DNA of 40,548 bases from Bacilli bacterium. Its GTDB lineage: Bacteria > Bacillota_I > Bacilli_A > RF39 > UBA660. The notes under the pieces were generated by a model, which was not told where the DNA came from, did not search any database, and worked only from the letters and a program-made list of their open reading frames with translations. Of this stretch, positions 17,291 to 40,548 are shown piece after piece. Both the position numbers and the translations under genes were made by a program. Within the stretch, counting starts at the first letter, position 1. Each line of letters starts with the position of its first letter. Where the stretch lies: assembly GCA_022798795.1 (NCBI GenBank), contig JAAWNF010000005.1:1-40548 (forward strand). The letters are read 5' to 3'.

Positions 17291-17328
17291 ATCATATTGT
17301 AGTAGAAATACTAAGTATGGTGGTTTTT

Positions 17329-18501: not shown

Positions 18502-18509
18502 AAAAAATA

Positions 18510-18518
18510 TGATATACT
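18510..18518 (+). promoter_or_regulatory. Extended -10 upstream of the frameshifted gene
   Basis: TGATATACT, 18 bp before the GTG at 18536. No clear -35 at the usual distance, as expected for TGn promoters. Confidence 0.4.
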
Positions 18519-18535
18519 GAACATAGGTGATATAC

Positions 18536-18764: not shown

Positions 18765-18773
18765 GTATGATTG

Positions 18774-19364
18774 ATGATTGATACAAGAGAAGAAAATGTA
18801 GAAATAGAGCTAAAAATATTAGTTCAAGATGAAGAAGCATTTAAGAGATATTTAGAAGAACACACCACTTTTATAAAAGAAGAAATGATAGAAGATACAT
18901 ATTTTGAAAATCCTGATTATCCATTTTTATATATAGATGAAAAGGGACTTAAAAATGCGAAAAAAAGGCTTCGAGTTCGTAAAAGTAATAGTGGAGATAC
19001 AATTAATTTTAAAGAAAAAGTATTTGGAGAAAAAGAACAATTTTTATATTCTAATGAAATAGAAGAAAAATTAACTTCAGGAGAACAAATGATTAAAATA
19101 TTGGAATCTCTTGGATTTGTCACTAGCTGTCATTATCATAAGGTAAGAAAAGTATATCATGCTGAAAATTTTGAATTTGATGTGGATTTTATTGATGTTT
19201 TAGGTATGGTTGTAGAAATTGAATATCAAGGAAAACTTGATGATTTAAAAAATGGTATTGATAGGATAAGAAGTTTTTTGAAAGAAATTGATATTACAAA
19301 TTATGTTGAGATAAGAACGACATACCCAGAAATATTATGGAATGGTATGGATTGTTATTTATAA
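18774..19364 (+). CDS. CYTH-domain phosphatase/cyclase-like protein
   Basis: A 196-residue CYTH (CyaB/thiamine triphosphatase) protein. The signature EIELK (residues 10-14) opens the tunnel fold, and alternating charged strand residues follow: KRLRVRKS, NFKEKVFGEKE, KVRKVYH, FDVDFIDVLGMVVEIEY. These enzymes bind triphosphates with Mg2+, acting as (thiamine or inorganic) triphosphatase or class IV adenylate cyclase; triphosphatase is more common in Firmicutes. ATG 18774 lies 8 nt after AGG. It is 9 bp after the frameshifted gene and converges on tmcAL. Confidence 0.8.
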   Translation: MIDTREENVEIELKILVQDEEAFKRYLEEHTTFIKEEMIEDTYFENPDYPFLYIDEKGLKNAKKRLRVRKSNSGDTINFKEKVFGEKEQFLYSNEIEEKLTSGEQMIKILESLGFVTSCHYHKVRKVYHAENFEFDVDFIDVLGMVVEIEYQGKLDDLKNGIDRIRSFLKEIDITNYVEIRTTYPEILWNGMDCYL

Positions 19365-19365
19365 G

Positions 19366-19391
19366 AAAAAGACATTTAATTGTCTTTTTTT
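19366..19391. terminator. Bidirectional terminator between the CYTH gene and tmcAL
   Basis: AAAAAGACA (19366-19374) pairs with TGTCTTTTT (19381-19389). A-run and T-run flank both sides, so it can serve both convergent genes; it includes the tmcAL stop codon. Confidence 0.75.
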
Positions 19392-20524: not shown

Positions 20525-20778
20525 GATAATCACCACAGTTATCATATCATATTTTCAATAAAATTGAATATCTTTCTTAAATTTATATGGAACCACAAAA
20601 AGCTATTTTAAAAAAATATTTTTTCATTTCAATTCAATTTTTTTAAGAATGATTTTATTTATTGTTATCATGTATTATTATTTTTTTATATTGCTTATTT
20701 ATTTGACAACTTTTTTGTTGTTTTTTTCTTTTGTATAAAAAAAGAAAAATTTTCCATAATAAATTTAGGAGGGAAAAC
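20525..20778. other. AT-rich intergenic region before spoVAC
   Basis: A divergent gap of 254 bp. It holds a weak hairpin CAAC-T6-GTTG followed by T residues near 20704-20728, and GAATG ... CATGTATTA (near 20647-20678), which is only loosely like a SigG promoter. I cannot support a promoter firmly. Confidence 0.4.
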
Positions 20779-21222
20779 ATGGAAAAAACAAAATATAAAG
20801 ATTTAGTGGATAAACATACTCCAAAAGAAAATAGATTATACAACGGAATGATTGCATTTATAACAGGTGGTTTCATGGGAGCACTAGGAGAATTATTGAG
20901 ACAGCTTTATGCTTACTTTTTTGATATTCCCACTTCAGAAGCTACAATGTTTATGATTATTACTTTAATATTTATTGGATGTTTATTTACTTGTTTTGGA
21001 TTTTTTGACAAATGGGTTAATTTTGCAAAATGTGGTTTGATTATTCCAATTACAGGATTTGCACATGCAATGATGAGTGCAGCTTTGGAATATCGCAAAG
21101 AAGGTATGGTAACTGGTATTGGAGCTAATATGTTTAAATTGGCTGGTTCAGTTATTATATTTGGAGTAGTGAGTGCATATACATTTGGATTAATTCGTCT
21201 TTTATTAGGAGGGATAGCATGA
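20779..21222 (+). CDS. spoVAC: Stage V sporulation protein AC
   Basis: A 147-residue multi-pass membrane protein of the SpoVA channel, with four to five hydrophobic segments and the family motif FITGGFMGALGELLRQ. SpoVA proteins import dipicolinic acid into the forespore and release it at germination; SpoVAC is thought to form the channel. The start MEKTKYKDLV at 20779 follows TTAGGAGGG. The ATG of spoVAD overlaps its stop by 4 nt. Confidence 0.93.
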   Translation: MEKTKYKDLVDKHTPKENRLYNGMIAFITGGFMGALGELLRQLYAYFFDIPTSEATMFMIITLIFIGCLFTCFGFFDKWVNFAKCGLIIPITGFAHAMMSAALEYRKEGMVTGIGANMFKLAGSVIIFGVVSAYTFGLIRLLLGGIA

Positions 21223-22208
21223 CATTTAAATATAATAATGTTTATTTGAATAGTGCAAGTACGGTAGCAGGACCATATGAACAAAAGGGTCCTTTAAAGA
21301 ACTATTATGATGCTACATATGATGATTTTTATATAAATATGGATACCTTTGAGCAAGCGGAAAGCAAAATGATAGAAGATAGTGTTGATATTTTGTTATC
21401 AAAAATAGGAAAAACAAAGTTTGATATTGATTTATTTTTATCTGGGGATTTATTAAATCAGATTGCTTCTTCTAGTTATGCAGCTAGTAGATTGGGAATT
21501 CCTTTTATGGGAGTTTATAATGCTTGTGCGACAAGTGTTGAAGGATTAATATTGGCATCAAATATGGTGGAAAGTAAGCAGATTAAAAATTGTATTTGTT
21601 CTGTAAGTTCTCATAATAATACTGCGGAAAAACAATTTCGCTATCCAGTTGAATATGGTGGCCCAAAACCAAAAACAGCGACATTTACAACAACAGGAAG
21701 TGCTAGTGCTTATTTATCTAGTAATAAAGAACAGATAAAAATAGATAGTTCTACCGTTGGTAGCGTTGTAGATTTAGGAATTAAAGATGTTTATCATATG
21801 GGTGCAGTTATGGCTCCAGCAGCAGCAGATACAATTTTTAAACATTTGAGAGATACCAAAAGAGAAATCGGTTATTATGATTTAATATTGACTGGAGATT
21901 TAGGAGTATATGGTAGAGATATTCTAAAAGAGTATATGCAAACGGAATTTGGAATAGAACTAAAGAATTATAATGATACTGCTTGTATGATATATGATAG
22001 GGAAAAACAACCAGTCTATGCAGGAGGTAGTGGACCAGCTTGTGCACCTCTTGTTACTTATAGTTATATTTTAAACAAAATGAAAAAAAAAGAATATCAT
22101 CGAGTTTTATTAGTTGCAACTGGAGCATTGCATTCTCCAACAATGGTGAATCAAAAGTTATCTATCCCAGCAATTGCTCATGCCATTAGTTTGGAGGTGG
22201 TAGAATGA
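21219..22208 (+). CDS. spoVAD: Stage V sporulation protein AD
   Basis: A 329-residue thiolase-fold protein. Family patterns seen: NSASTVAGPYEQKGPL near the N-terminus, GVYNACATSVEGL around the position of the thiolase cysteine, VSSHNNTAEKQFRYPVEYGGPKP, and the C-terminal GALHSPTMVNQKLSIPAIAHA. SpoVAD binds dipicolinic acid at the spore inner membrane. Overlaps both neighbours by 4 nt, so the three genes are translationally coupled. Confidence 0.94.
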   Translation: MTFKYNNVYLNSASTVAGPYEQKGPLKNYYDATYDDFYINMDTFEQAESKMIEDSVDILLSKIGKTKFDIDLFLSGDLLNQIASSSYAASRLGIPFMGVYNACATSVEGLILASNMVESKQIKNCICSVSSHNNTAEKQFRYPVEYGGPKPKTATFTTTGSASAYLSSNKEQIKIDSSTVGSVVDLGIKDVYHMGAVMAPAAADTIFKHLRDTKREIGYYDLILTGDLGVYGRDILKEYMQTEFGIELKNYNDTACMIYDREKQPVYAGGSGPACAPLVTYSYILNKMKKKEYHRVLLVATGALHSPTMVNQKLSIPAIAHAISLEVVE

Positions 22209-22555
22209 TTTTCGTTAATTCATTTCTATTTTGTGGTTTTGTTTGTTTATTAGGACAAATGATATTAGATAATACCAAATTAACACCAGGGCACGTTACT
22301 ACAATCTTTGTTATTGTGGGAGCTTTCTTAGATACTTTTAGTATTTATGATAAAATTATTTTGTGGGCAGGAGGAGGAGCTTTAGTTCCAATCACAAGTT
22401 TTGGACATTTGCTTTCTCATGGAGCTATGGATGTAGCTTTAGACCAAGGATTAATGGCACTTTTTATGGGAATGTTTAACTTGACAGCTTCTGGCATTAC
22501 CTCAGCAATTATCTTTTCATTCTTTCTTTCTCTTATATTTAAACCAAAAGATTAG
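22205..22555 (+). CDS. spoVAE: Stage V sporulation protein AE
   Basis: A 116-residue membrane protein with four hydrophobic segments and the GHVTTIFVIVGAFLDTF and GAGGGALVPITSFGH-like patterns of SpoVAE (the small SpoVAEb form). Last gene of a minimal spoVAC-D-E operon; no spoVAA, AB or AF is adjacent, which is usual in clostridia-like sporulators. Confidence 0.92.
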   Translation: MIFVNSFLFCGFVCLLGQMILDNTKLTPGHVTTIFVIVGAFLDTFSIYDKIILWAGGGALVPITSFGHLLSHGAMDVALDQGLMALFMGMFNLTASGITSAIIFSFFLSLIFKPKD

Positions 22556-22578
22556 AAATCATATTTTCTAATTTTTTT
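22551..22578 (+). terminator. Terminator of spoVAC-D-E
   Basis: ATTAGAAA (22551-22558) pairs with TTTCTAAT (22565-22572), 6-nt loop, T-run after. Confidence 0.7.
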
Positions 22579-22598
22579 GTATTATTAAAAATGAAACA

Positions 22599-22607
22599 TG
22601 ATATAAT
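22599..22607 (+). promoter_or_regulatory. Extended -10 promoter of the DUF2207 gene
   Basis: TGATATAAT 18 bp before the start codon. The -35 is weak (TTGTAT at 19 bp spacing). Confidence 0.5.
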
Positions 22608-22625
22608 GAATGTAAGGGTGATTGT

Positions 22626-24521
22626 ATGAAGAAATTATTTGCGATATGGATTTTTCTAATTGCCAGTTTTACGTTACCAATAGTAGTAAAGGCAACTGAT
22701 TATGGAATAGAAAATTTTAATATGCATATAACCGTTTTAGAAAATGGAGATTTGTATGTAAGAGAAGCTTTTGTTATGAATGGTACATTTAATGGAATGG
22801 ATAGAGATATTAATTTTGAAAACATTTTTGCGTCAAAATTTACTGGAGATAAAGATTCTTTTAATGGAAGTAGTATTTATAATGGGACTGATATAGAGCT
22901 TATTCAAATAAGAGCGATTCCTTATAATGATTCTATTTCTTGGAAAGATATGGAGAATAGCGGAACAAAATTTACGAAAGTTTATAGTGCTGAAGCAGGC
23001 GAATTTGGGGTCTATACAGAAAATAAAACAAGTTCAGGAGTGAGTTTTCGTATTTATAATCCTTCTTCAAAGAGACATTTTTTCTATTTGGAATATGTTA
23101 TTGAAAATATGGCAGTTGTTCATGAAGATGTAGCAGAAGTTGGTTGGAATATCTTTAATGATAATTTTAGAGAAAGTATTCATCATTTTAAGGCAGACAT
23201 ATATATTCCAGATAATCAAAATTTGTTAAAAGGGTATGCTCATGGACCATTAGTTGGAAATATAGAATTAGATGGAAATAATCATATTATTCTTACAATT
23301 GATGAGTTATATGCGAATACAGCAATGGATACTCGCTTTGTATTCGATAAGAAAGTTGTAAATGGTTCTACTAAATTTTCTCATGTGGAAGCACTTGATA
23401 CAATTGTAGAAGTAGAAACAGAAAAGGCAGAGGTTGCGAATCAAAAAAGAGAAGAAGCAAGAAAGCAAGTAGCAAGAGATAGAAAAATAACATTATTTAT
23501 GACAATTGCTTTTAGTGTACTAGGTGGAGCATGGATTATTGGATTGGGATTCTTAATTTTTAACATTTATAAAAAACATGATAAAGAGTATGAATCAACT
23601 TTTAAAACTGAATATTTTAGAGATTTTCCAGCAGATTATAATCCATCTACTGTAGGATATTTATTTCATCAGAATGTTAGTAATAATGATTTGTCAGCTT
23701 GTTTGTTAAATTTAATTTATAAAAAAGTAGTAACCTTTGAGCCACTTAATAAAAAAGATTATAAGCTTGTTTATAATGAAAATGAAGCTATTATGACAGC
23801 TTCGGATAAACAATTGATAAAGTTAATTTTTAAAGAACGAGAAATCACTTTAAATGAGCTTAAGAAAAAAGCCAAATCAGGTTATTCTTCTTTTATTAGT
23901 AATTTTAATCAATGGAAAAATTTAGCGACTATAGAAGCAAAGAATGAAAATTTTTATGAAAATAAATCAGGGATTAAACTGAAATCTAGTCTTTATTCTA
24001 TATTAGGGTTAGTTCTTGCTGTATTGGCATTTAGATATATTTTTCTATTTGGAATTGTGATTTTTGTATTAGCCATAATTTCTTTAATTTATTTCTTATC
24101 ATTTACGAAAAAAACTTTGAAAGGCAATGAGCATTATTTAAAGTGGAAAGCTTTAAAAAAATTTATGGAAGATTTTGGAACGATGGATAAGAAAGATTTA
24201 CCAGAAATTGTATTATGGGAAAAATATTTAGTTTATGCGGTTAGTTTAGGATGTGCTGATAAACTTTCTAAGACAATGCAACTTAGAATTAATGATTTTG
24301 GTGATACAGATTTAATTGACATTCATTATAATATGAGAACAATGAGAGATATGATGATTTTTAATCGGATTATGTCTTCTACAATAAATACTGCTGTTTC
24401 TAATGCTTATTCGGCACAGTCAATAGCAAATTCTTCTAATTCTTCAGGAGGTGGATTTGGAGGAGGCTTCTCTGGAGGCGGAGGTTCTTTTGGCGGTGGC
24501 TCTGGCGGAGGACGTTTTTAA
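22626..24521 (+). CDS. DUF2207 membrane protein with glycine-rich C-terminus
   Basis: A 631-residue protein: signal peptide (1-23, ending VVKA), an outside beta-rich domain (about 24-280) with the DUF2207 pattern ITVLENGDLYVREAF, a membrane helix at about 288-312, a cytoplasmic region, a membrane pair at about 455-492, and a final tail GGGFGGGFSGGGGSFGGGS-like. This plan is typical of the widespread DUF2207 family, whose function is unknown. It follows GGGTGATTGT and stands alone with its own promoter and terminator. Confidence 0.85.
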   Translation: MKKLFAIWIFLIASFTLPIVVKATDYGIENFNMHITVLENGDLYVREAFVMNGTFNGMDRDINFENIFASKFTGDKDSFNGSSIYNGTDIELIQIRAIPYNDSISWKDMENSGTKFTKVYSAEAGEFGVYTENKTSSGVSFRIYNPSSKRHFFYLEYVIENMAVVHEDVAEVGWNIFNDNFRESIHHFKADIYIPDNQNLLKGYAHGPLVGNIELDGNNHIILTIDELYANTAMDTRFVFDKKVVNGSTKFSHVEALDTIVEVETEKAEVANQKREEARKQVARDRKITLFMTIAFSVLGGAWIIGLGFLIFNIYKKHDKEYESTFKTEYFRDFPADYNPSTVGYLFHQNVSNNDLSACLLNLIYKKVVTFEPLNKKDYKLVYNENEAIMTASDKQLIKLIFKEREITLNELKKKAKSGYSSFISNFNQWKNLATIEAKNENFYENKSGIKLKSSLYSILGLVLAVLAFRYIFLFGIVIFVLAIISLIYFLSFTKKTLKGNEHYLKWKALKKFMEDFGTMDKKDLPEIVLWEKYLVYAVSLGCADKLSKTMQLRINDFGDTDLIDIHYNMRTMRDMMIFNRIMSSTINTAVSNAYSAQSIANSSNSSGGGFGGGFSGGGGSFGGGSGGGRF

Positions 24522-24536
24522 ATATAAAAAAAACGT

Positions 24537-24567
24537 AAAAAAGTGTTACTGTGTTAGCACTTTTTTT
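24537..24567 (+). terminator. Terminator of the DUF2207 gene
   Basis: AAAAAAGTG (24537-24545) pairs with CACTTTTTT (24558-24566) with a partly paired interior. Confidence 0.65.
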
Positions 24568-24618
24568 AATAATTAGATTTATTTTCTGTATGATATTTAT
24601 TCGAGAGGAGAAATATTT

Positions 24619-25698
24619 ATGGAAAATAATAATCATAAAAGAGTTTATTTGAGAAAGGATGGACGATACTTTATTAAATATAAGAAAGGAATCAATCAAA
24701 ATGGAAAAACAGAGTATGGATTTATTTATGCCAAAAGTCCAGAAGAGGTATTAGAAAAGTATAAGAGCACATTGTCAAAAATATCTACAATTGATAAATC
24801 CTTATTTAGTGGTGATATATATCATTGGCTTAAAAGTGTTAAAATATCTTGTAAAAAATCATCTTATTCTAATTATGAATATATGGTATATGCACATCTT
24901 ATACCAACATTTGGAAAGTATAAGAGAAAACAAATTAATAAAAATATTATTAATGAATTTACAGAAAAAATGTTAAATCGAGGAATGGCTCCAAAAACAG
25001 TAAAGGATATATTGGTTATATTAAAACAAATTTTAAATTATCATAATATGAATATTTGTGTGACAATGCCAAAGGTTCCTAAAAAGGAAATTCAAATACT
25101 TACAAAAGAACATCAATTATTGTTAGAACAAAGATTAAGTCATTGTATAGCAGAAGAAGATATCGGTGTATTTTTATGTTTGTATACAGGTATTAGAATT
25201 GGTGAATTATGTGGTCTAAAGTGGGAAAACATTGATTTAGAGAATAATATTATTCGAATTGAAAAAACTTTAATACGGGTTAAAAATGATGATAAAAATA
25301 AAAAATCTAAAACGGTTGTAATATTAGATGACCCAAAATCTGCTTCTTCGATAAGAAACATTCCGATTCCAACCTTTTTGGTTTCCAAGTTGAATACTTT
25401 AAAAAAAGAAGAATCATGTTTTTTTTTAACAGGTACCAAAAATTTTATTGAACCAAGAAGTTATACAAATCATTATAAAAATATTATGAAATCACTAAAT
25501 ATAGATGAATATAATTTTCATGCATTAAGACATACATTTGCAACTAGATGTATAGAAAAAGGCTGTGACCCAAAAACTTTAAGTGAAATTCTTGGCCATT
25601 CAAATGTAAAAATTACATTAGATAGATATGTTCATCCAAGTTTTGATAACAAAGTTAGATTGATGAATAATTTAAATCCTATGTGTCATTTTAATTAA
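24619..25698 (+). CDS. Tyrosine recombinase (integrase/invertase)
   Basis: A 359-residue phage-integrase-family recombinase. Order: AP2-like arm-binding N-terminus (about 8-50), SAM-like core-binding domain (about 62-145), catalytic domain with Arg193 (TGIRIGELCGLKW), a lysine near 240, His301-x-x-Arg304 (HALRHTFATR), His327 (LGHSNV) and nucleophile Tyr337 (TLDRYVHPS). It makes covalent 3'-phosphotyrosine intermediates at paired core sites with short spacers. It lies 46 bp before the first of two inverted-repeat-bounded promoter segments, so a DNA invertase role is inferred. The arm-binding domain is more usual in integrases of mobile elements, so it may derive from one. Start follows CGAGAGGAG. 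Confidence 0.9.
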   Translation: MENNNHKRVYLRKDGRYFIKYKKGINQNGKTEYGFIYAKSPEEVLEKYKSTLSKISTIDKSLFSGDIYHWLKSVKISCKKSSYSNYEYMVYAHLIPTFGKYKRKQINKNIINEFTEKMLNRGMAPKTVKDILVILKQILNYHNMNICVTMPKVPKKEIQILTKEHQLLLEQRLSHCIAEEDIGVFLCLYTGIRIGELCGLKWENIDLENNIIRIEKTLIRVKNDDKNKKSKTVVILDDPKSASSIRNIPIPTFLVSKLNTLKKEESCFFLTGTKNFIEPRSYTNHYKNIMKSLNIDEYNFHALRHTFATRCIEKGCDPKTLSEILGHSNVKITLDRYVHPSFDNKVRLMNNLNPMCHFN

Positions 25699-25703
25699 AA
25701 GGA

Positions 25704-25730
25704 ATTGGTTCATTATGAATCAATTTTTTT
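25704..25730 (+). terminator. Terminator of the recombinase gene
   Basis: ATTGGTTC-type arm (25704-25713) pairs with ATGAATCAAT (25715-25724) before seven T. It separates the recombinase from the invertible segment that follows. Confidence 0.7.
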
Positions 25731-25744
25731 ATAAAATAAAATCC

Positions 25745-25761
25745 CAAAGCTTTTCACTTTG
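25745..25761 (+). repeat. Left inverted repeat of segment 1
   Basis: CAAAG-CTTTTCA-CTTTG; flanking arm bases extend the internal symmetry to 10 bp with one mismatch. It is the exact reverse complement of 25899-25915. Confidence 0.85.
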
Positions 25762-25798
25762 AGATTAAAAGACTTGTTGCATTCACAACTTAGACGTT

Positions 25799-25827
25799 AT
25801 TTTATTATAAAAAATAATATTTGTCAA
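25799..25827 (-). promoter_or_regulatory. Leftward promoter inside invertible segment 1
   Basis: On the minus strand, TTGACA (25822-25827), 17-bp spacer and TAAAAT (25799-25804). It points toward the recombinase terminator, away from the 25939 gene. After inversion it would face that gene with the start of transcription about 30 bp before the right repeat. Confidence 0.7.
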
Positions 25828-25898
25828 ATTTAACCATTTTTAAATAGTAGTCATTATTTTTAAAACATTTATATTTTCTTTTTTTATCAGAATTTTCA

Positions 25899-25915
25899 CA
25901 AAGTGAAAAGCTTTG
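25899..25915 (-). repeat. Right inverted repeat of segment 1
   Basis: CAAAG-TGAAAAG-CTTTG on the plus strand, with perfect 10-bp arms. It ends 23 bp before the start codon of the 25939 gene. Confidence 0.85.
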
Positions 25916-25938
25916 TGAAATTTAAGGGGGAATTATAA

Positions 25939-27072
25939 ATGGAAAAGACAACAAAAAAATATGTGGAGTATTTATATCCTGGTTTTATTGTATCAGAAAG
26001 TAGTAGTATGGAAATTGAACACAGTGACCCAATGAAAGTGGAAGTGAAAGAACATGTAATTGGGTTTCGATTCTATGAAAAAGATTTTATATATTCTGAT
26101 GGACAACAATTTGAGGGACAGATAAAGAATATGACAAATTGGTTTTATATTGGAAAAAGGCTTACTTTAGCCGAAGTGAAAAGTCGTTTTAATGGAATGC
26201 CAAAATATAAAACTTTAATTGATAATATGGAATGTAATGAAATATCATCTGTATGTATGACTGAATATGGTAATTTTATGCCAATGGAAAAAGAGGATAT
26301 TACATTAAATGAATATGTGACTGAACATGGTAAAGAAGCCAATGCTTTAAAAATGTTTCAAGCATTGAAAAAACATTTAGGAAAAAGTGTTTCTTATCGG
26401 GGATGGTGGTATGGAGTAGCTCAAAATGAAACAGGAATATTAAAAGATGTTAATTTTTTTACAAATGTAGAAATTGGTTGTCATGGAATACCATTTGTTG
26501 GATATGGTTCTGCTATTTCATCTATTATCTTGGATGAAACAGGAGAAGAATTATACTCTAATCCACATATTGAATATGGATATGATAGAAGAAGCCCAGA
26601 AAAAATTGAAGAATCAAGAAGAATGTTTTTTGGAGATACAATTGTGGATAAACAGAGAAGTCGTAGAATGAAAGCAGAAGCTATTAGAAAGCAAAAACAA
26701 GAACAAGCTGATTTAGAGGCTAAGAAAAAGAAATATATATTTATGAGAGAGGGGCTAGCTTTTGTTAAAAGTGAAGAGGCAGAAAATTGGATGCAATATG
26801 TAGATAATAACACAAATGATGCCTATTCTTGTTGTATTGTAGAAGCCACTTTATTATGCTTGAAACAATTACAAGAAGGGGCTACTTGTGAAGTGGTAGA
26901 AAAAGTGTATGTCGAAATGGGATTAAGTGGATATATGGCTGGAGCAGTTTCTAGCATGATTGCTCGCTTTAGTACAAGAGGAAGTGAATTTAAACAATAC
27001 TGGAATAAAAAATTTGGTATTTCAGGAGAAGAAAAAGGTACTGTAAATCCAGCTATATTAGTTTTATCATAA
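25939..27072 (+). CDS. Unrecognised 377-residue protein under switch 1
   Basis: I do not recognise a family. No signal peptide or membrane helix is seen. The N-terminal half (YVEYLYPGFIVSES, GFRFYEKDFIYSDGQQFEG, NWFYIGKRLTLAEVKSRF) looks beta-rich; a basic coiled-coil-like stretch (RSRRMKAEAIRKQKQEQADLE, about 233-262) follows, then a helical C-terminus with two adjacent cysteines (YSCCIVEATLLCLKQL). AAGGGGG precedes the start. The only credible promoter nearby is the inverted one in segment 1, so the gene should be silent in the assembled orientation. A cytoplasmic effector or regulator is possible but unsupported. Confidence 0.7.
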   Translation: MEKTTKKYVEYLYPGFIVSESSSMEIEHSDPMKVEVKEHVIGFRFYEKDFIYSDGQQFEGQIKNMTNWFYIGKRLTLAEVKSRFNGMPKYKTLIDNMECNEISSVCMTEYGNFMPMEKEDITLNEYVTEHGKEANALKMFQALKKHLGKSVSYRGWWYGVAQNETGILKDVNFFTNVEIGCHGIPFVGYGSAISSIILDETGEELYSNPHIEYGYDRRSPEKIEESRRMFFGDTIVDKQRSRRMKAEAIRKQKQEQADLEAKKKKYIFMREGLAFVKSEEAENWMQYVDNNTNDAYSCCIVEATLLCLKQLQEGATCEVVEKVYVEMGLSGYMAGAVSSMIARFSTRGSEFKQYWNKKFGISGEEKGTVNPAILVLS

Positions 27073-27078
27073 AAAATA

Positions 27079-27116
27079 AAAAACTCACAAAGTGTTTTTC
27101 TTTGAGAGTTTTTTTT
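27079..27116 (+). terminator. Terminator of the 25939 gene built on a recombinase-like core site
   Basis: AAACTC-A-CAAAG (to 27092), 7-nt loop TGTTTTT, CTTTG-A-GAG (27100-27108), then T residues. The CAAAG-N7-CTTTG core is the same as in the invertible segments but with a different spacer. Confidence 0.7.
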
Positions 27117-27121
27117 CTTAT

Positions 27122-27138
27122 AGTAAAAGACTTTATGA
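27122..27138 (-). repeat. Left inverted repeat of segment 2
   Basis: Exact reverse complement of 27259-27275. Spacer TAAAAGA on the plus strand. Confidence 0.85.
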
Positions 27139-27157
27139 TTTTCCTTGAGTGCTTCTT

Positions 27158-27185
27158 ATATTATCACTTTTTTTATTTTTGTCAA
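27158..27185 (-). promoter_or_regulatory. Leftward promoter inside invertible segment 2
   Basis: On the minus strand, TTGACA (27180-27185), 16-bp spacer and TAATAT (27158-27163). It faces the terminator of the 25939 gene, away from the 27303-28145 pair. Inversion would turn it toward them. Confidence 0.7.
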
Positions 27186-27258
27186 ATTTTGTTATAAATG
27201 AATTTTTAAAAGTCAAAAATGGGAATAATTATTTATATGCTAATCCTTAAAAAAGATT

Positions 27259-27275
27259 TCATAAAGTCTTTTACT
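27259..27275 (+). repeat. Right inverted repeat of segment 2
   Basis: TCATAAAG-TCTTTTA then CT; flanked by TTGAGAA, giving arms ATAAAG / CTTTGAG. It ends 27 bp before the start of the 27303 gene. Confidence 0.85.
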
Positions 27276-27302
27276 TTGAGAATTGTTTAAGGGGGTTGGA
27301 TT

Positions 27303-28139
27303 ATGAGTCAGGAAAGAAATTTTAAAGAAAATGAACGAAAGAGGTTAGAACAAAAAAAATTTTTAATTCAGATGAAAAAAGAAATGAATGATTTAGAAAA
27401 CAAAATAAAATTTTCAAGATTTTTAAATTTAAAAATTGCCACTGTAAGAAATTTAAAAATATCATTACGTGCTATGCAGTTAGTTGCACCTTATGTATTG
27501 ACAGCTGGGTTAATAGCAGGTGGATTTAAGTTGGTTGGAGGTTGTCCATTCTATCGTGATGTGCGACAACAAAATTTGAATATAATGAAAGAATTTGATA
27601 ATTTAGGAAATATCAGATATGAAGAACAATATAGTGAATATTCTGGTGCTTCAAATATATTATATTTTTATGGAAAATGGGAAAAATCAAATGATGGTTT
27701 TTACACTAGAACTGTGGAAAAGTATAAGCTAAAAGAATTGACAGAAGAAGAAATCATAGAATTATTTGGGAAAGAGAAAATGACTTTACAAGATATATTG
27801 GGTTCTCCTCTTTCTTCATTTCGAGAATCTAATAATAATGTTGCTGATGAAGATATAGAAAAAGATAATTATTTTCAAGCAATTATTTACCAAGAAAATA
27901 AAGAAGATTATATTTTAGTGAGGGAATCTGTTTCTGATAATATTTTAATCACCATATTATATATTTGTATTACTGCTCTAGCAGAACTTTTGCCATTATA
28001 TTTTAGAACTGAACTTTCAAGTTTTGATTTTGGAAATTGCGTATCAAGTATTAAAGAAAGATATCAACCAGTTGATATTCCAACTTTAACCAAAAAATTA
28101 AGAATCAAAAGGGAAAATTATGATAGGTTAACGAGGTAA
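27303..28139 (+). CDS. Unrecognised two-helix membrane protein under switch 2
   Basis: A 278-residue protein. A charged coiled-coil-like N-terminus (1-45) leads to one membrane helix (about 58-80, LVAPYVLTAGLIAGGFKLVGG), a domain of about 130 residues beginning CPFYRDVRQ, and a second helix (about 212-234, LITILYICITALAELLPLYF), with a short basic cytoplasmic tail. With two helices the middle domain would be outside the cell. No family recognised. AAGGGGGTTGG precedes the start. Five bases separate it from the amidoligase gene, so the two are almost certainly cotranscribed, and the only promoter candidate is the inverted one in segment 2. Confidence 0.7.
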   Translation: MSQERNFKENERKRLEQKKFLIQMKKEMNDLENKIKFSRFLNLKIATVRNLKISLRAMQLVAPYVLTAGLIAGGFKLVGGCPFYRDVRQQNLNIMKEFDNLGNIRYEEQYSEYSGASNILYFYGKWEKSNDGFYTRTVEKYKLKELTEEEIIELFGKEKMTLQDILGSPLSSFRESNNNVADEDIEKDNYFQAIIYQENKEDYILVRESVSDNILITILYICITALAELLPLYFRTELSSFDFGNCVSSIKERYQPVDIPTLTKKLRIKRENYDRLTR

Positions 28140-28144
28140 TTGGT

Positions 28145-29179
28145 ATGCTAGGAAATATTAGAAAAACAAATGAAATCGTAGATGCACCTATTTTTAAATT
28201 TATAAAACCTGGAGGAAATGATTCTTTATCTGATATGAGTGGAATCGATTTACAAGATTTATTATATTATGTAGAAAATTATTATTTAGAATTGCGAAAT
28301 CGTTTAGGATTTGATGATAAAGTTACTTTTGGATTAGAACTAGAATTTGAAAAAGCGTTTAAAAAACGAATTGAACAGAAATTGGAAGAATATCAGTTAG
28401 ATGATTCTTGGCGATTAAGGGGAGATGGCTCTTTATGTAGAGGTGCAGAAATTAATTCTCCTATATTAACAGATGCATCTGATTCTTGGTGTCAATTAAA
28501 AACGGTTTGTCAAATTGTTCAGCAACATGCATCAATTGATAAAAGTTCAGGTGGACATATTCACATAGGGACTCAAGTGTTAGGAAATAAAACAGAATCC
28601 TGGAAGAACTTTATCAAGCTATGGTCTGTATATGAAAATATTATTTATCGGTTTGTATATGGAGATTATTTAAATGCAAGGTCTAGTATGTTAAAGTATG
28701 CAAGACCATTAGCAAAGCAATTTTGGAGCGACTATCAAGAGATGTTGGAATGTGATTCATTAACTTTAAGGGGGATTGTTAGTAAAATTTCTCATGAAAG
28801 ATATCAAGCTGTAAATTTTAATAACGTGAGTGATTTTGATAGATTTCAATCTGAAAATACGATTGAATTTAGATGTCCTAATGGAACTTTAGAACCTGTT
28901 ATTTGGCAAAATAATGTTAATTTATTTGTTCATTTATTGCAGTATTCTAAAAGTGCTAGATATGATGATGACATGGTTCAAAGAAGAAGAATAATAAATA
29001 AAAATGATTATTCAAGTTTGACTTTTTATGGTGAAATATATTTACAGCAGGCTTTAGAATTGTGTGATATGATTTTTACAAATAATTTTGATAAGGTATA
29101 TTTTTTAAGACAGTATCTAAAATCTTTTGAAATTGGAAATAAAGAATTGGCAAAACCTAAATTGTTTGTGAAAAAATAA
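28145..29179 (+). CDS. Amidoligase-family enzyme (COOH-NH2 ligase) under switch 2
   Basis: A 344-residue protein of the putative amidoligase family (PF12224-like, glutamine-synthetase/GCS fold). Motifs in order: FGLELEFE (62-69), WRLRGDGSLCRGAEINSP (about 89-106), SGGHIHIG (135-142), and EFRCPNGTLEP (241-251). Family members are predicted to form amide bonds with ATP, attaching amino acids or peptides to proteins, glycans or other metabolites. Paired with a membrane protein and placed behind an apparent phase switch, it may modify the cell surface; that is inference. AACGAGGTAATT precedes the start. A terminator follows. Confidence 0.8.
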   Translation: MLGNIRKTNEIVDAPIFKFIKPGGNDSLSDMSGIDLQDLLYYVENYYLELRNRLGFDDKVTFGLELEFEKAFKKRIEQKLEEYQLDDSWRLRGDGSLCRGAEINSPILTDASDSWCQLKTVCQIVQQHASIDKSSGGHIHIGTQVLGNKTESWKNFIKLWSVYENIIYRFVYGDYLNARSSMLKYARPLAKQFWSDYQEMLECDSLTLRGIVSKISHERYQAVNFNNVSDFDRFQSENTIEFRCPNGTLEPVIWQNNVNLFVHLLQYSKSARYDDDMVQRRRIINKNDYSSLTFYGEIYLQQALELCDMIFTNNFDKVYFLRQYLKSFEIGNKELAKPKLFVKK

Positions 29180-29184
29180 AATTG

Positions 29185-29218
29185 AAAATCATGAAGAATA
29201 TTTCTTGATGATTTTTTT
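29185..29218 (+). terminator. Terminator of the 27303-29179 pair
   Basis: AAAATCATGAAGAA (29185-29198) pairs with TTCTTGATGATTTT (29201-29214) with one mismatch, then T residues. Confidence 0.7.
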
Positions 29219-29225
29219 GATAATA

Positions 29226-29258
29226 TAAAAATAGTATATTCCATTTGAACATACTATT
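29226..29258 (-). terminator. Terminator of the 29275 minus-strand gene
   Basis: AATAGTAT (29230-29237) and ATACTATT (29251-29258) form the stem; on the minus strand the hairpin is followed by T residues. Confidence 0.6.
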
Positions 29259-29274
29259 GATATTTTAACTAAAT

Positions 29275-29592
29275 TTACATCATTTGATAATTTGATGCAT
29301 TATATTTTGTATTGTAAGAAGTTGAACTATTATTCACCATATTTTCTAATCTTGTGATTCGACGTTCTAAATTGTTAATTTGACTGTTTAAATTATTGAT
29401 TTGCCCTTCTACATTACTGTAATCGTTACTACCTGTGCTAGTTGTATAATTGTAATTTGGCATTGTAGGCATTGGCATAACATTAGGAATACCTGGCATA
29501 ATTCCTGGCATAGCAGGCCCTCCCATCATTGGGTAAGTTGGATAAACTGGATTTAAAGCAACATTTGCTCCACAATTTCTATCTTTTTTCAT
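29275..29592 (-). CDS. Small Pro/Met-rich protein with a coiled coil, possibly a spore coat protein
   Basis: A 105-residue protein. After MKKDRNCG comes a Pro/Met/Gly-rich part (residues about 10-45, repeated PGI, MPG and MPN units), then a heptad coiled coil (EGQINNLNSQINNLERRITRLENMV), then an Asn/Tyr/Ser-rich tail. Low complexity of this type is common in spore coat proteins and the organism sporulates, but no family is certain. The start at 29592 follows AAAGGAGTGTTTAAA; a GTG three codons earlier is less likely. Confidence 0.65.
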   Translation of the reverse strand: MKKDRNCGANVALNPVYPTYPMMGGPAMPGIMPGIPNVMPMPTMPNYNYTTSTGSNDYSNVEGQINNLNSQINNLERRITRLENMVNNSSTSYNTKYNASNYQMM

Positions 29593-29651
29593 TTTAAACA
29601 CTCCTTTATTTGTTCTAATTCATTATATGAGTTTATTTTCATTTCGTGACA

Positions 29652-29660
29652 TGATATAAT
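29652..29660 (+). promoter_or_regulatory. Extended -10 promoter of trmB
   Basis: TGATATAAT, 15 bp before the trmB start codon; no clear -35. Confidence 0.45.
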
Positions 29661-29675
29661 AATAATGGTGATTAC

Positions 29676-30311
29676 ATGAGATTAAAGCACATAAAAGGAG
29701 CACATGAAAGAATAGAAGCTTCTAATTATATTATACATAGTCCTGAGGAAAAGAGGGGACATTATCAATGTTTGTTTGATAATCATAATCCTATTTATGT
29801 TGAAATTGGTACAGGGAAAGGGACGTTTATTATAGAACAAGCGAAAAGACATCCAAATATTAATTTTATTGGGATTGAAAAATTTGATAGTGTTATGGTA
29901 AAAGTAGTAGAGAAACTGGAACAGGAAAAGTTATCAAATTTATTGCTTATAAGAATGGATGCGACTGAAATAGAAAAAATATTTGACCATGAAATAGATT
30001 TATTATATTTAAATTTTTCGGATCCGTGGCCTAAAAAAAGACATGCTCATAGAAGATTAACAAGTCCGATTTTTTTGAAACGTTATGAAACCATTTTTAA
30101 ACAATCTATAGAAATTGAAATGAAAACAGATAATCGTCAGCTATTTGAATATTCTATAATTTCATTTAATGAGTTTGGATTTCATATGACTGATATTTCT
30201 CTTGACTTACATCAAGATAATATAGTAGATAATATTGAAACAGAATATGAGCAGAAATTTGCTTCAAAAGGTTTTCCAATTTATAAAATTCATGTTACAA
30301 AAGAGATTTAA
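29676..30311 (+). CDS. trmB: tRNA (guanine-N7-)-methyltransferase
   Basis: A 211-residue enzyme that makes m7G46 in the tRNA variable loop from S-adenosylmethionine. Motifs: the SAM loop VEIGTGKGTFI, IGIEKF, and the family signature LNFSDPWPKKRHAHRRL. Full length. Start follows ATGGTGATTAC. Confidence 0.93.
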   Translation: MRLKHIKGAHERIEASNYIIHSPEEKRGHYQCLFDNHNPIYVEIGTGKGTFIIEQAKRHPNINFIGIEKFDSVMVKVVEKLEQEKLSNLLLIRMDATEIEKIFDHEIDLLYLNFSDPWPKKRHAHRRLTSPIFLKRYETIFKQSIEIEMKTDNRQLFEYSIISFNEFGFHMTDISLDLHQDNIVDNIETEYEQKFASKGFPIYKIHVTKEI

Positions 30312-30340
30312 CACATTTTTACATATCTCTTTCCTTTTTT
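30300..30340 (+). terminator. Terminator of trmB
   Basis: AAAGAGAT (30300-30307) pairs with ATCTCTTT (30325-30332) around a 17-nt loop, then CCTTTTTTC. Confidence 0.55.
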
Positions 30341-30361
30341 CTTTTGTATTTCTTAATTTTT

Positions 30362-30370
30362 TGATATAAT
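30362..30370 (+). promoter_or_regulatory. Extended -10 promoter of the lipoprotein gene
   Basis: TGATATAAT, 20 bp before the start codon; a weak CTTTTG lies 18 bp upstream of the -10. Confidence 0.45.
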
Positions 30371-30390
30371 CATAGTAAGCAGGTGGAAAG

Positions 30391-31008
30391 ATGAAAAAAG
30401 TAATCTTATTATTAGCTTTATTAACTTGTCTATTTTTTGTGACAGGTTGTACAATGGTACGAATAGATACTGACAGTATTGATAATACTATAAATGTAAT
30501 CTTATCCAAAGAAAATAGTCTTTATAATCGAGTTGGAAAAGGATATAAATATTATATCCCAAGAGGTGTTATTTACATTGACACTGATGAATTCAATGAT
30601 AAATTATATTCAAATGGAAATTATTACTATTTATATATTGATGCTATCAGCTATTATTATCAAAAAAAAGCAACGTATCAGACAAATGAGCAAGCATATT
30701 ATTCGAAAGTGATTCACACCAAGGATAAAGATGGTTATGTAGAAATTATAGAGCAAGACAAAAAGTATTTGGTTCGTTTTGCTTATAATTATGCTAGAAT
30801 AGAGACACTTGTTGATAAAAAGGATATTAATGATGTTATTTTAAATGCTTCATATATTTTATCAACAGTAAAATTTAATCATAATGTGATTAAGTTAATG
30901 TTGAATGATGAGTATTTTACCAATAAAGAAGAAACTTATGATTTGTTTAATTCAACAGGAAATGATTTTAATGATAGCAAAGTAGTTGAAGCAGAAAGTA
31001 ATAATTAA
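30391..31008 (+). CDS. Unrecognised lipoprotein
   Basis: A 205-residue exported protein with a clear type II signal peptide (MKKVILLLALLTCLFFVTGC, lipid-attached Cys20). The mature part is Tyr/Asn/Asp-rich with no motif I recognise. GCAGGTGG precedes the start. It is followed 15 bp later by the acidic protein and the ytxG/ytxH-like pair, which suggests an envelope-related operon of four genes. Confidence 0.7.
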   Translation: MKKVILLLALLTCLFFVTGCTMVRIDTDSIDNTINVILSKENSLYNRVGKGYKYYIPRGVIYIDTDEFNDKLYSNGNYYYLYIDAISYYYQKKATYQTNEQAYYSKVIHTKDKDGYVEIIEQDKKYLVRFAYNYARIETLVDKKDINDVILNASYILSTVKFNHNVIKLMLNDEYFTNKEETYDLFNSTGNDFNDSKVVEAESNN

Positions 31009-31023
31009 ATAGAGGTGAATATA

Positions 31024-31977
31024 ATGAAATTTCTAGAAAAAGTAAAAAATATGTTTACAGAAGAAGTAGAAGAAGAAATAACGCCTGTTAAAACAGAAGT
31101 TCGAAAAGTAGAAATTCCAGTTCCTGTAAAACCGATTGAAAAAGAGGAAGAAATTCCTCGTAAGAATGAACCAGCTAGTGAAGTTGAAGTTGTTAAAAAA
31201 GAAGAGAAGCCAAAAGCTCCAGTATTCTTTGATGATAAAGATTTCGATAAATTACCAACTGCTTCTAATGTAGAAAAAAAGGAAGAAAAACAAGTAGTGA
31301 CAAAAGTTTCACAGCCAAAGCCTTCTACAAAATTAGAACGGAAAGAAGCTTATGGTGGAAAAAGTCCAGCTTATACAGCATCTACTTTTAAAGAAGAAAA
31401 AAAGACTTTTAAGCCAACTCCTATTATTTCTCCTGTATATGGAGTATTAGATAAAAATTATAGAAAAGATGATATTGCTCCAAAGAAAAGAGTCACTCAA
31501 AGTAGTGTTTCAAAAGAGCTTACTGTAGATGATATTCGGAATAAAGCGTTTGGAACTTTGGAAGACGAATTAGAGACAACGTTATTTGGAAGTATGCCTC
31601 CTATTACTGAATCTTTAAATACAGAAGAAGAGGATATGGGGCTAGATTTATTTGATGAATTAGAGGTAAAAGAATCACAAGAAGATTCAATGGAAGAAAT
31701 TGCGACATCTTCTAGGGCAGAAAGAAATAGAGAGTTAGAACTTTTAGATGAGGTAGATGGTTTAGAACAAATGGTAATTAACGAAAGACCAGAGTTTGAG
31801 CCTTCTATAGAAGAAGAACCAATTGTAGAAGATACAAATCAGAATATGATTGAAGATGAGATGGATAAGATTTGTAGTGAGCCAAGTGAAGAACTTGAAA
31901 ATGATACCAACTTAACAGAAAGTGACCTATTTAATTTAATTGATTCTATGTATGAAAAGAAGGAAGGTGAAGAATAG
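31024..31977 (+). CDS. Acidic low-complexity protein
   Basis: A 317-residue protein rich in Glu, Lys, Val and Pro, with no membrane helix. It begins MKFLEKVKNMFTEEVEEE, which looks like a short amphipathic helix that could touch the membrane, then continues as a mostly disordered chain (residues 15-150) and acidic segments to the end. I do not recognise a family. ATG 31024 is chosen because AGAGGTGA lies 5-12 nt upstream. Its stop codon overlaps the next GTG. Confidence 0.65.
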   Translation: MKFLEKVKNMFTEEVEEEITPVKTEVRKVEIPVPVKPIEKEEEIPRKNEPASEVEVVKKEEKPKAPVFFDDKDFDKLPTASNVEKKEEKQVVTKVSQPKPSTKLERKEAYGGKSPAYTASTFKEEKKTFKPTPIISPVYGVLDKNYRKDDIAPKKRVTQSSVSKELTVDDIRNKAFGTLEDELETTLFGSMPPITESLNTEEEDMGLDLFDELEVKESQEDSMEEIATSSRAERNRELELLDEVDGLEQMVINERPEFEPSIEEEPIVEDTNQNMIEDEMDKICSEPSEELENDTNLTESDLFNLIDSMYEKKEGEE

Positions 31978-32264
31978 TGGAAGCAATGGAACTATTACCA
32001 ATCATATTATATATTCTTTTGATTATATTAGTAGTGGTGGCCATCGTATTTTTGGTTCGTCTTATAAAAGTTGTTGGAAAAGTTGATAGAGTCGTAGATG
32101 ATGTTGATAGAAAAGTAAGAAAGTTAAATGGTTTATTTGAAATTGTTGACAGAACAGCTGATACATTAAATGTAGTAAGTGATAGGGTAATAAGTGGAAT
32201 TGTAGGAACAATAAATACTATATTTAGAAAAAGAAAAAAGAAAGGTGAGGATACTTATGAGTAA
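31977..32264 (+). CDS. DUF948-like (YtxG-type) membrane protein
   Basis: A 95-residue protein with one N-terminal membrane helix (about 6-28) and a helical cytoplasmic part with repeated VDRVVDDVDRKV and IVDRTADTLNVVSDRV, typical of DUF948/YtxG. The family sits beside YtxH in Firmicutes and its role is obscure (stress, cell envelope). The GTG start at 31977 overlaps the preceding TAG and follows GGAAGGTG. Its stop overlaps the ATG of the next, truncated gene. Confidence 0.72.
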   Translation: MEAMELLPIILYILLIILVVVAIVFLVRLIKVVGKVDRVVDDVDRKVRKLNGLFEIVDRTADTLNVVSDRVISGIVGTINTIFRKRKKKGEDTYE

Positions 32265-32310
32265 GAAAAAAAGTGGATTAGGAAAGTTTTTATTAGGAGC
32301 AGGAGTAGGA
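32257..32310 (+). pseudogene. ytxH-like gene cut at the assembly junction
   Basis: ATG 32257 with AAAGGTGAGG upstream begins MSKKKSGLGKFLLGAGVG, the expected N-terminus of a YtxH-family protein (Gly-rich membrane helix). After 18 codons the sequence changes at about 32311 to a T-box leader. The chimeric frame runs on to a stop at 32407-32409 but those residues are not protein-like. The loss of the remainder marks the contig breakpoint. Confidence 0.75.
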
Positions 32311-32311
32311 T
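32310..32311. other. Probable chimeric junction between two genomes
   Basis: Left of this point the DNA is very AT-rich and runs into a ytxH-like coding region. Right of it a T-box leader begins only at its stem III hairpin and everything that follows is GC-richer with different codon choice. Confidence 0.75.
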
Positions 32312-32424
32312 GTGACGTCAGTGCACGTTACGCAAAAGTTGAGCGCTTGAGAATCGTTGATTCCCAAGAACCAGGGTGGTATCGCGGAGAATTTCGTCCC
32401 TATGCATAAGCATAGGGACTTTTT
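32311..32424 (+). promoter_or_regulatory. 5'-truncated T-box riboswitch upstream of pheS
   Basis: Present are a stem-III-like hairpin GTGACGT-CAGTGC-ACGTTAC (32312-32331), the conserved T-box CCAGGGTGGTATCGCGG (32371-32387) that pairs with the tRNA acceptor end, and the terminator GTCCCTATGC-ATAA-GCATAGGGAC (32396-32419) followed by T residues. Stem I with the specifier codon (expected UUC for tRNA-Phe) and the promoter are missing, replaced by the AT-rich sequence. Uncharged tRNA-Phe would normally bind and prevent termination before pheS-pheT. Confidence 0.85.
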
Positions 32425-32528
32425 GCAGTACAGGATAAATTTTATCGTTCCTGTCACAGGACGCGTTCCATAGGATGTGCGTCAGAATTCTCATTTCAGC
32501 GTAAAAGATTGTAAAGATGGAGGACATT

Positions 32529-33548
32529 ATGAGAGCAAAATTAGAACAGATCAAAGCAGAAGCAATCCGTGAGATACAGAATTCGGATGGGCTTGCAAAA
32601 TTAAATGATGTTAGAGTCGCTTTTCTTGGCAAGAAGGGGGAACTGACGGCTGTTTTAAAAAGCATGAAGGACGTGCTCCCAGAAGAGCGTCCAGTGGTAG
32701 GGCAGTTAGTGAATGAGACCAGAGAGAATATTGAGCGTCTAATTGAAGAGACAAAAGCTAAGTTGGAAGCAGCAGAACGAGAGTTAAAGTTAAAACAAGA
32801 GGTGATTGATGTAACTTTGCCTGCAAAAAAGAATCAGGTGGGACACAAGCATCCGAATACGATTGCGCTGGAAGAGGTGGAACGTATTTTCATAGGTATG
32901 GGATACGAAGTAGTGGAAGGGCCGGAAGTGGAATATGATTATTACAATTTTGAAGCGTTAAATATTCCAGCAAATCATCCGGCAAAGGATGAGCAGGACA
33001 CTTTTTATATTAATGATAAGATTGTGCTGCGCACCCAGACTTCTCCAGTGCAGGTGCGTCAGATGGAAACAGGAAAACTTCCCATTCGTATGATCGCGCC
33101 AGGTCGGGTGTTCCGCTCAGACGAGGTAGATGCAACGCATTCTCCTTCCTTCCATCAGATTGAAGGGCTGGTTGTGGATAAAAATATTACTTTTGCAGAT
33201 TTGAAGGGAACTCTCGCAGAGTTTGCAAAAGAACTGTTTGGTGAAGATACCAAAGTGAAGTTCCGTCCTCATCATTTTCCTTTTACGGAGCCTAGCGCCG
33301 AGGTAGATGTGACATGCTTTAAATGTGGCGGAAAGGGCTGTAGATTCTGTAAAGGTTCTGGTTGGATTGAAATTTTAGGTTGTGGCATGGTGCATCCAAG
33401 GGTGCTTAAAATGAGCGGTATTGATCCAGAAGAGTATTCTGGCTTTGCCTTTGGCGTTGGACTGGAACGTATTGCACTTCTTAAATATGAGATTGATGAC
33501 ATGCGTCTTTTATATGAAAATGACGATCGTTTCTTAAAACAGTTTTAG
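32529..33548 (+). CDS. pheS: Phenylalanine-tRNA ligase alpha subunit
   Basis: A 339-residue class II aminoacyl-tRNA synthetase subunit with an N-terminal coiled coil (1-85) and the catalytic core: [21 protein letters not shown]-like [56 protein letters not shown], and [12 protein letters not shown] (motif 3). [13 protein letters not shown] stretch is the family's usual cysteine-rich loop. ATG 32529 follows GGAGG by 6 nt; an ATG 12 nt earlier overlaps the binding site. Acts as alpha2beta2 with PheT. Controlled by the T-box. Confidence 0.95.
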
Positions 33549-33587: not shown

Positions 33588-36008
33588 ATGAATACATCAT
33601 TATCATGGATCAAAGCTTACGTCCCAGATTTGGATGTAACTGCACAGGAATATACAGACGCAATGACTCTTTCAGGTTCCAAAGTAGAGGGATTTGAGGC
33701 ATTGGATGCAGATTTGGATAAAATTATCATCGGTCAGATCACGAAAATTGAAAAACATCCAGATGCTGATAAACTTGTAGTATGTCAGGTAGATGTGGGA
33801 ACAGGGGAAGATATTCAGATTGTTACAGGGGCTTCCAATGTCAGGGAAGGTTACAAAGTTCCGGTGGTGCTGGACGGTGGACGTGTGGCAGGAGGTCACG
33901 ATGGTAAGAAGACACCAGGCGGAATTAAAATAAAGAAGGGAAAGCTCAGAGGTGTTCCATCCAACGGTATGATGTGCTCCATTGAAGAGCTTGGATCCAC
34001 AAGAGAATTGTACCCAGAAGCGCCAGAGGATGGAATTTACATTTTTGGAGAGGATGCAGTTGTTGGAGAGAGCGCCATAGCAGCCTTAGGGCTCGACGAT
34101 GTGGTATTTGAATATGAAATTACATCTAATCGTGTGGACTGTTTTGGAGTGATTGGACTGGCAAGGGAAGCAGCAGCTACCTTTGGAAAAGAATTTAAAC
34201 CTCCTGTGGTAGCGTCAACTGGAAATAATGAGAATGTCAATGATTACATTAAGGTCCGAGTGGAGGATACAGAACTTTGTCCAAGATACTGTGCAAGGGT
34301 AGTAAAAAATATTAAAATTGCACCTTCACCCCAGTGGATGCAACGTCGTCTGGCATCACAGGGAATTCGTCCGATCAATAATATTGTGGATATAACCAAT
34401 TATGTGATGGAAGAATATGGCCAACCCATGCATGCCTATGACTTAGATACGATTGCTGGTAGAGAGATTGTTGTGCGCCGTGCTGCAAAGAATGAAAAAT
34501 TTGTGACATTGGATGGACAGGAGCGTACCATGGACGATATGGTACTGATGATCTGCGATGGTGAGAAAGCAGTAGGAATTGCGGGGATTATGGGTGGTGA
34601 AAATTCCATGATCACAGACAACGTGCAGACGATGCTGTTTGAAGCGGCATGTTTTGACGGGACCAATATCAGGCTATCCAGCAAGAAGGTAGGACTTCGC
34701 ACAGATGCTTCAGGCAAATTTGAAAAAGGGTTGGATCCGAATAATGCCATGGAGGCGATTGATCGTGCCTGCCAGTTGATTGAAGAGCTGGGAGCGGGGG
34801 AAGTAGTAGGCGGCGTAGTAGATGTGTATGGCAAGAAAAAAGAAGGCCGTAGAATTCCTTTCGATGCCAAGAAGGTAAATCAATTGTTGGGTACAGATAT
34901 TGACAAAGAGACAATGATTGGCTACTTTCAGAAAATTGATTTGGATTATGATTATGAAAAAGAGGAGGTTGTCGTGCCGTCTTGGAGACAAGATTTGGAA
35001 TGTCTGGCAGATATGGCGGAGGAAGTGGCAAGATTTTATGGTTATGACAACATTCCTACCTCCCTGCCCAGAGGAGAAGCTACTACTGGAAAATTGTCTT
35101 TTAAGCTGAGGATAGAAGCGCTGGCAAGAGATACAGCAGAGTTCTGTGGCTTCAGTCAGGGGATGACCTATTCCTTTGAAAGTCCAAAGGTGTTCGATAA
35201 GTTGTTAATTCCAGAGGACAGTGATCTTCGGAATACGGTTGTGATCTCGAATCCATTGGGAGAAGATTTCAGCATTATGCGTACCATCTCTCTGAACGGG
35301 ATGCTGACCTCTTTATCCACAAATTATAACCGGAGAAACAAAAATGTTCGTCTCTATGAATTGGGAAATATTTACCTTCCCAAACAGGTTCCCGTGACAG
35401 AACTTCCAGAGGAACGGATGCAGTTTACTTTGGGAATGTATGGAGATGGCGATTTCTACACCATGAAAGGTGTGGTGGAAGAATTTTTTGATAAAGCAGG
35501 GCTTCATGGTAAGGAAAGCTATGATCCAAATGCTGGAAAATCCTTTTTGCATCCGGGCAGACAGGCAAATGTGATTTATGATGGCAAAATCGTGGGATAT
35601 CTGGGAGAACTTCATCCACAGGTTGCGGACAATTATTCTATCAAAGAACGTGTCTATGTGGCAGTGATTGATATGCCAGAAATTACAGCACTGGCCAGCT
35701 TTGACAGAAAATATCAGGGAATTGCCAGATTCCCAGCAGTGACCCGTGATATCAGCATGGTGATGCCAAAGACGATTCTTGTGGGGGATGTGGAGAAAAT
35801 TTTTGATACAAAAGGCGGACAATATTTGGAGAGCTATGAGCTGTTTGATATCTATGAGGGAGCTCAAATAAAATCTGGCTTTAAGTCTGTGGCGTATTCT
35901 CTGACCTTCCGCGCAAAGGACAAGACCTTAGAGGAAACGGACTATGCTCCTGCCATGGATAAGATTTTAAAGGCACTGGAAGAGTTGGGAATTGAATTGA
36001 GAAAGTAA
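33588..36008 (+). CDS. pheT: Phenylalanine-tRNA ligase beta subunit
   Basis: An 806-residue subunit with, in order, the N-terminal B1 part, an OB-fold tRNA-binding domain (about 40-150, [21 protein letters not shown]), the B3/B4 editing domain that hydrolyses Tyr-tRNA(Phe), B5, the catalytic-like core, and the C-terminal anticodon-binding FDX-ACB domain (from about 710, [13 protein letters not shown]). Full family length. It starts 39 bp after pheS, in one operon. Confidence 0.95.
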
Positions 36009-36016: not shown

Positions 36017-37081
36017 ATGGATGTAAAAGATTTTTATTATGATCTGCCCAACGAACTGATCGCTCAGGATCCTCTTTTGGATCGTTCTAGTTCTAGGCTT
36101 TTGGTACTGCATAAAAATTCTGGAAAGTTGGAACATCGACATTTTGCGGATATATTGGAATATCTGACTCCAAAGGACTGTTTGGTGATCAACAATACGA
36201 AAGTAATTCCTGCAAGGCTGTTTGGCCAACGGGAAGGGACCCAGGGAAAAGTAGAGATTCTCTTATTAAAACGGAAGGAACAAGATCTATGGGAAACTCT
36301 GGTAAAACCTGGAAAGAAAGCAAAACCTGGTACGAAAATTCTGTTTGGAGAAGGAATTTTGACAGGAGAGGTGGAAGATGTGGTGGAGGATGGCAACCGA
36401 CTGATTCGGTTTTCCTATGAAGGGATTTTTGAGGAGATCTTGGAACAACTTGGGCAGATGCCGTTGCCCCCATATATCACCCACCAGCTAAAAGATAAAA
36501 ACCGTTATCAGACGGTGTATGCAAAATATGACGGTTCTGCGGCTGCCCCGACGGCTGGGCTGCATTTTACACCAGAGCTTCTCGATGAAATCAGAGGTAA
36601 GGGAATCCCTATTGCAGAGGTGACGCTCCATGTAGGACTCGGAACTTTTCGTCCAGTAAAAGCCGAGCAAGTGCAGGAACACCATATGCATTCAGAATTT
36701 TATCAGTTGGATGAGCAGGCAGCAAAGATTATCAATGAGACAAAACGAAGGGGAGGTAGGGTAATCTGTGTGGGAACTACAAGTTGTCGCACAGTAGAAT
36801 CTGCTGCAACAAAGCTACTGGAAGAACATCAACTGGACGATAGACAAGAAGAGAAATTTTGGGTAAAGTCTTGCAGTGGTTGGACCGATATTTTTATCTA
36901 TCCTGGCTATCAGTTTCAGGTGTTGGATGCCCTAATTACAAATTTTCATTTGCCAGAATCTACGCTGGTGATGCTGGTGTCTGCGCTGGCTGGCAGAGAG
37001 CAGGTTTTAAATGCTTATCGCAAGGCCGTAGAGGAGAAGTATCGTTTTTTTAGCTTTGGGGATGCGATGTTAATTTTGTGA
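36017..37081 (+). CDS. queA: S-adenosylmethionine:tRNA ribosyltransferase-isomerase
   Basis: A 354-residue QueA, which builds the epoxycyclopentane of queuosine in tRNA from S-adenosylmethionine. Family signatures: [66 protein letters not shown] and [18 protein letters not shown]. It starts 9 bp after pheT and is closed by a strong terminator, so pheS-pheT-queA may be one transcript. Confidence 0.95.
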
Positions 37082-40383: not shown

Positions 40384-40548
40384 GAGGAACGAATTATATC
40401 TCAAAGAGCTCTGTCTAAAAAATTGAAATGTCTAACAAAAGAAGCCAACAGCATTTGCTCATGTGAGATAAAGAAGTAAAAGAAGTGTAAAAAATTTTGC
40501 CGTTCCCTGTCCGGCTGACTGCCGGACGGGTCGGGCTTTAGTCGGGCA

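Follow-up and report, generated by a model that had tools for sequence, protein, structure and literature searches.

Interspecies misassemblies in metagenome-assembled genomes place two lineages on one contig and cut the features located at the join. Foreign single-copy genes that fill a gap in a bin represent, in the terms of the GUNC paper (PMC8201837), non-redundant contamination, and that paper describes misassemblies as rarer than mis-binning, which is a point against a chimera in the present case. The window analyzed here, the whole stretch of 40,548 nt, is an entire contig (C20) and resembles both of these described situations; no difference was found from known interspecies chimeric contigs. 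The bin consists of 1,359,160 bases in 91 contigs, with completeness of 97.73 and contamination of 4.98, the number of contigs and the contamination being counted in favor of a chimera. Within the window, a left fragment (positions 1..32310) from the chromosome of the bin's own low-G+C genus is followed by a right Lachnospiraceae fragment (32311-40548), carrying the tail of a T-box leader, the genes pheS-pheT-queA, and then further genes, and this one point interrupts both a gene and an RNA leader. An earlier note on this DNA had proposed a contig chimera at about 32311, and the two lineages, the two cut features, and the left continuation on other contigs of the bin bear it out: the contig is, with high confidence, a chimera of two unrelated bacteria, an artifact rather than biology. 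That no cell carries this join is our inference, whereas the two lineages and the breakpoint are shown by the sequence comparisons.

Positions 1-32310 are colinear with contig C3 of genome G001 and with those parts of G002:C3 and G003:C80 that were compared, the main blocks showing 81-90% DNA identity. This fragment includes infC (11602-12207) and rplT (12428-12991), both identified by Pfam, and a gene for a 320-aa protein at 31015, which was found in 18 of the 31 genomes searched (own included), among them all five same-genus relatives. A tyrosine recombinase gene (PF00589) is located at 24619-25698, inside the block colinear with the same-genus genomes. The last feature on the left is the 5' piece of ytxH (32257..32310, forward strand), which starts with ATG at 32257 and reads MSKKKSGLGKFLLGAGVG. 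The DNA match to the window stops exactly at 32310 in all five same-genus genomes, and in each of them the sequence past this position stays in the ytxH frame. The uncut product is 136 aa in length in the three same-genus genomes translated, and the one product scanned matched Pfam YtxH with an E value of 5.6e-19. The gene in the window thus keeps exactly 18 native codons, as the earlier note had read it.

The changes in base composition and codon choice claimed at this point were both recovered. The G+C content is 0.285 on the left (1-32310) versus 0.401 on the right (32311-40548), and a homology-free search placed the single best change point at 32295, which lies 15 nt away from where the homology breaks off. 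For 15 left and six right genes, GC3 is 0.172 versus 0.382, and the CTG codon is used 2 times in 5341 codons versus 46 times in 2335. A change in the style of ribosome-binding sites, also claimed, was not evident, since the start regions of these 15 left and six right genes, compared by eye and without statistics, carry mixed purine-rich sites on both sides.

The right fragment encodes pheS (32517..33548; TIGR00468, 354.6 bits), pheT (33588..36008; TIGR00472, 786.9 bits), and queA (36017..37081; PF02547, E value 4.1e-145), all on the forward strand. Upon protein search, PheS was assigned to Lachnospiraceae, with Petralouisia muris as the top match at 94% among the best 80 of at least 591 confirmed candidates. 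The DNA match continues through pheS-pheT-queA, with 77% identity to the two nearest Lachnospiraceae among the PheS matches listed, and both PheS and PheT are of the Lachnospiraceae type. Pieces of the right half matched in all 29 genomes of the right-hand genus, the longest at 75-80%, and an aligned piece begins within 12 nt of the break in 15 of these (12 at 32313 and three at 32322). The source species itself was not found among these 29 genomes and 397 genomes of the family, the latter being an even draw from a larger group, of which 341 gave matches. Further downstream on the forward strand, a DUF3440/PAPS-reductase-like gene (38244-39563) and a ParB-N-like gene (39553-40164) match genomes of the same genus at about 71-80%, and are located near pheST-queA in several of them. 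The two sides come from different lineages: the left half is colinear over 32 kb with its own genus, and the right half has the sequence and gene order of Lachnospiraceae. The two downstream genes overlap (38244-40164), and the pair is widely conserved in the right-hand genus. The segment between queA and the DUF3440 gene (37082-38201) has a lower G+C content (0.335 over 37001-38000), holds a kinase-like gene (37241-37795, forward strand; NF005994, below its cut-off), and is mostly absent from the loci of the relatives.

A complete T-box leader combines Stem I with its specifier loop and an antiterminator with the T-box motif, and scores above gathering. The leader upstream of pheS in the window resembles the pheST T-box of RF00230 in its antiterminator and terminator half and in its location, but differs in that foreign coding sequence takes the place of Stem I and of half of the stem that follows; both stems are complete in the Lachnospiraceae relatives. 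RF00230 matches 32248-32404 with 56.7 bits, short of the 93 required at gathering, and the alignment skips most of the model's Stem I region, in agreement with the view that the first half of the T-box is lacking. No Rfam family matched at its gathering score anywhere in the window; a match at the junction to RMST_3, a lncRNA model, had an E value of 0.17 and was taken as chance. The part that remains (32311..32424, forward strand) comprises the later stems and the antiterminator, covered by the RF00230 match to 32404, and the terminator, a hairpin of 32396-32405 with 32410-32419 followed by T's, upstream of pheS at 32517. Among four Lachnospiraceae loci scanned, a complete T-box above gathering was found upstream of pheS in three (L004, L005, and L013; 110-125 bits), and no T-box above gathering was found in the fourth (L009). 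By eye, the break is located at an AGTA motif in the 3' half of what we take to be the stem after Stem I. The leader as assembled would be unable to read tRNA. The relatives are thus natively continuous across the break on both sides, through ytxH in all five same-genus genomes on the left and through the T-box in three of the four loci on the right.

At the join, the window reads GGAGTAGGATGTGACG. The left relatives have GGAGTAGGA followed by GCAGG or GCGGG, the nearest ones having GCAGG. On the right, a motif pattern printed the T-boxes of seven of nine loci (it did not pick up L152 and L154), and AGTAGGATATGACG is present in four of these seven, the others having AGTAAGA and similar sequences; in four of the seven, AGTAGGA is followed by TATGACG. 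From comparison of these relatives, the two halves probably have 7 nt (AGTAGGA, 32304..32310) in common, or perhaps 9 nt, starting from 32302. Under random breakpoints, an overlap of at least 7 nt is expected with a probability of about 0.0004-0.0013, in a simple model that is conditional on the source species having AGTAGGA. The shared bases blur the position of the breakpoint, a correction to the single point described earlier. The chimera would have been formed when a low-G+C genome fragment stopping inside ytxH at 32310 was joined, at the 7-9 nt that the two probably share, to an unrelated Lachnospiraceae fragment beginning inside the pheST T-box leader, and would have arisen in library preparation, assembly, or scaffolding. 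Assemblers usually need k-mers longer than this overlap, which favors a chimeric fragment or a scaffold join over a shared k-mer; our guess for the route is a chimeric read, template switching during amplification, or short-overlap scaffolding.

The contig ends with a 95-nt repeat (40454..40548), found with up to 100% identity at many sites in Lachnospiraceae genomes, and in the four sites read a serine-recombinase-like frame, named by eye, is located near it. The repeat probably marks the tip of an integrative element, and a contig stop at such a common mobile element is expected for a Lachnospiraceae fragment. This tip and the tyrosine recombinase gene of the left half could be taken to mean that a mobile element brought the right-hand block into ytxH. 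The tip, however, lies 8.1 kb away from the junction and is present at many Lachnospiraceae sites, the recombinase gene belongs to the stretch colinear with the same-genus genomes, and around 32311 neither a long or terminal repeat common to both sides nor a mobile element was seen. Insertion of a mobile element at 32311 was rejected for the lack of such a repeat around the join, and its chance appears close to nil. The exact 40-nt junction and PheS were both without match in a viral contig collection, a result of little weight.

A second alternative is horizontal transfer, by which the low-G+C lineage would have replaced its own pheST with the Lachnospiraceae pheST-queA block, inserted into ytxH by illegitimate recombination at the 7-9 nt of homology, leaving a leader without tRNA control. 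The short homology fits this event as well, and the bin contains one PheS and one PheT, both of the Lachnospiraceae type and with no second copy found, as gene replacement would predict. PheS was detected in all 30 other genomes searched, at 38-56% identity to that of the window, the same-genus proteins being about 55% identical to it (with a second, weak match in one class-level genome). Upon search with an 18.5 kb query of the pheST neighborhood of G003, the bin yielded no native block; the foreign pheS matched best, at 68%, and the other 12 matches were 223 nt or less, whereas the same method recovered most of the 19 kb of another region at 84-88%. Absence of the whole neighborhood, and not of pheST alone, together with recovery of the other region, indicates a gap in the bin rather than gene replacement, and most simply, as judged from these searches, the bin appears to lack the true pheST region of this species. 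Transfer with in-place replacement was rejected on account of this missing neighborhood. In addition, all five same-genus genomes have uncut ytxH at this place and pheS elsewhere, the leader would have arrived without Stem I, and the composition of the right half is not ameliorated. A recently transferred block should have recipient DNA on both flanks, but only the left flank is native, with no return to native sequence on the right before the contig ends. Natural transfer would thus require several unlikely events at once, and we regard it as very improbable.

A chimeric contig remains the preferred reading, and the fate of the left continuation and the contig end in a Lachnospiraceae repeat both count in its favor. 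When a 19 kb query from G002 running through the break was searched against the bin, it matched the window as far as 32310, followed by C12 (query positions 2887-9642) and C59 (9635-19001), in the native order. Against the chimera, the 1.5 kb between the match ending at 32310 and that to C12, which in G002 includes the rest of ytxH, was not found in the bin, a ytxH protein search of the bin gave the 5' piece alone and no native uncut copy, and no Lachnospiraceae DNA from upstream of the T-box was found there with one 14 kb query run without a positive control.

The warning of the earlier note against inferring the biology of the left genome from the right side stands, and the ytxH/T-box junction should, with the same high confidence as the chimera itself, not be regarded as a real feature. 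Users of this genome would otherwise attribute to the low-G+C species a pheST of Lachnospiraceae and a T-box tail. Since pheS and pheT are common completeness markers, scores using them would be too high, and trees based on them would be wrong.

C12 terminates 66 nt past its match to the G002 query. The tail of C12 and the head of C59 (L135 and L146) carry A+T-rich sequence with a short coding frame, which is not at that place in G002, and the A+T-rich stretch between the two contig ends probably represents a small native insertion located where the contigs break.
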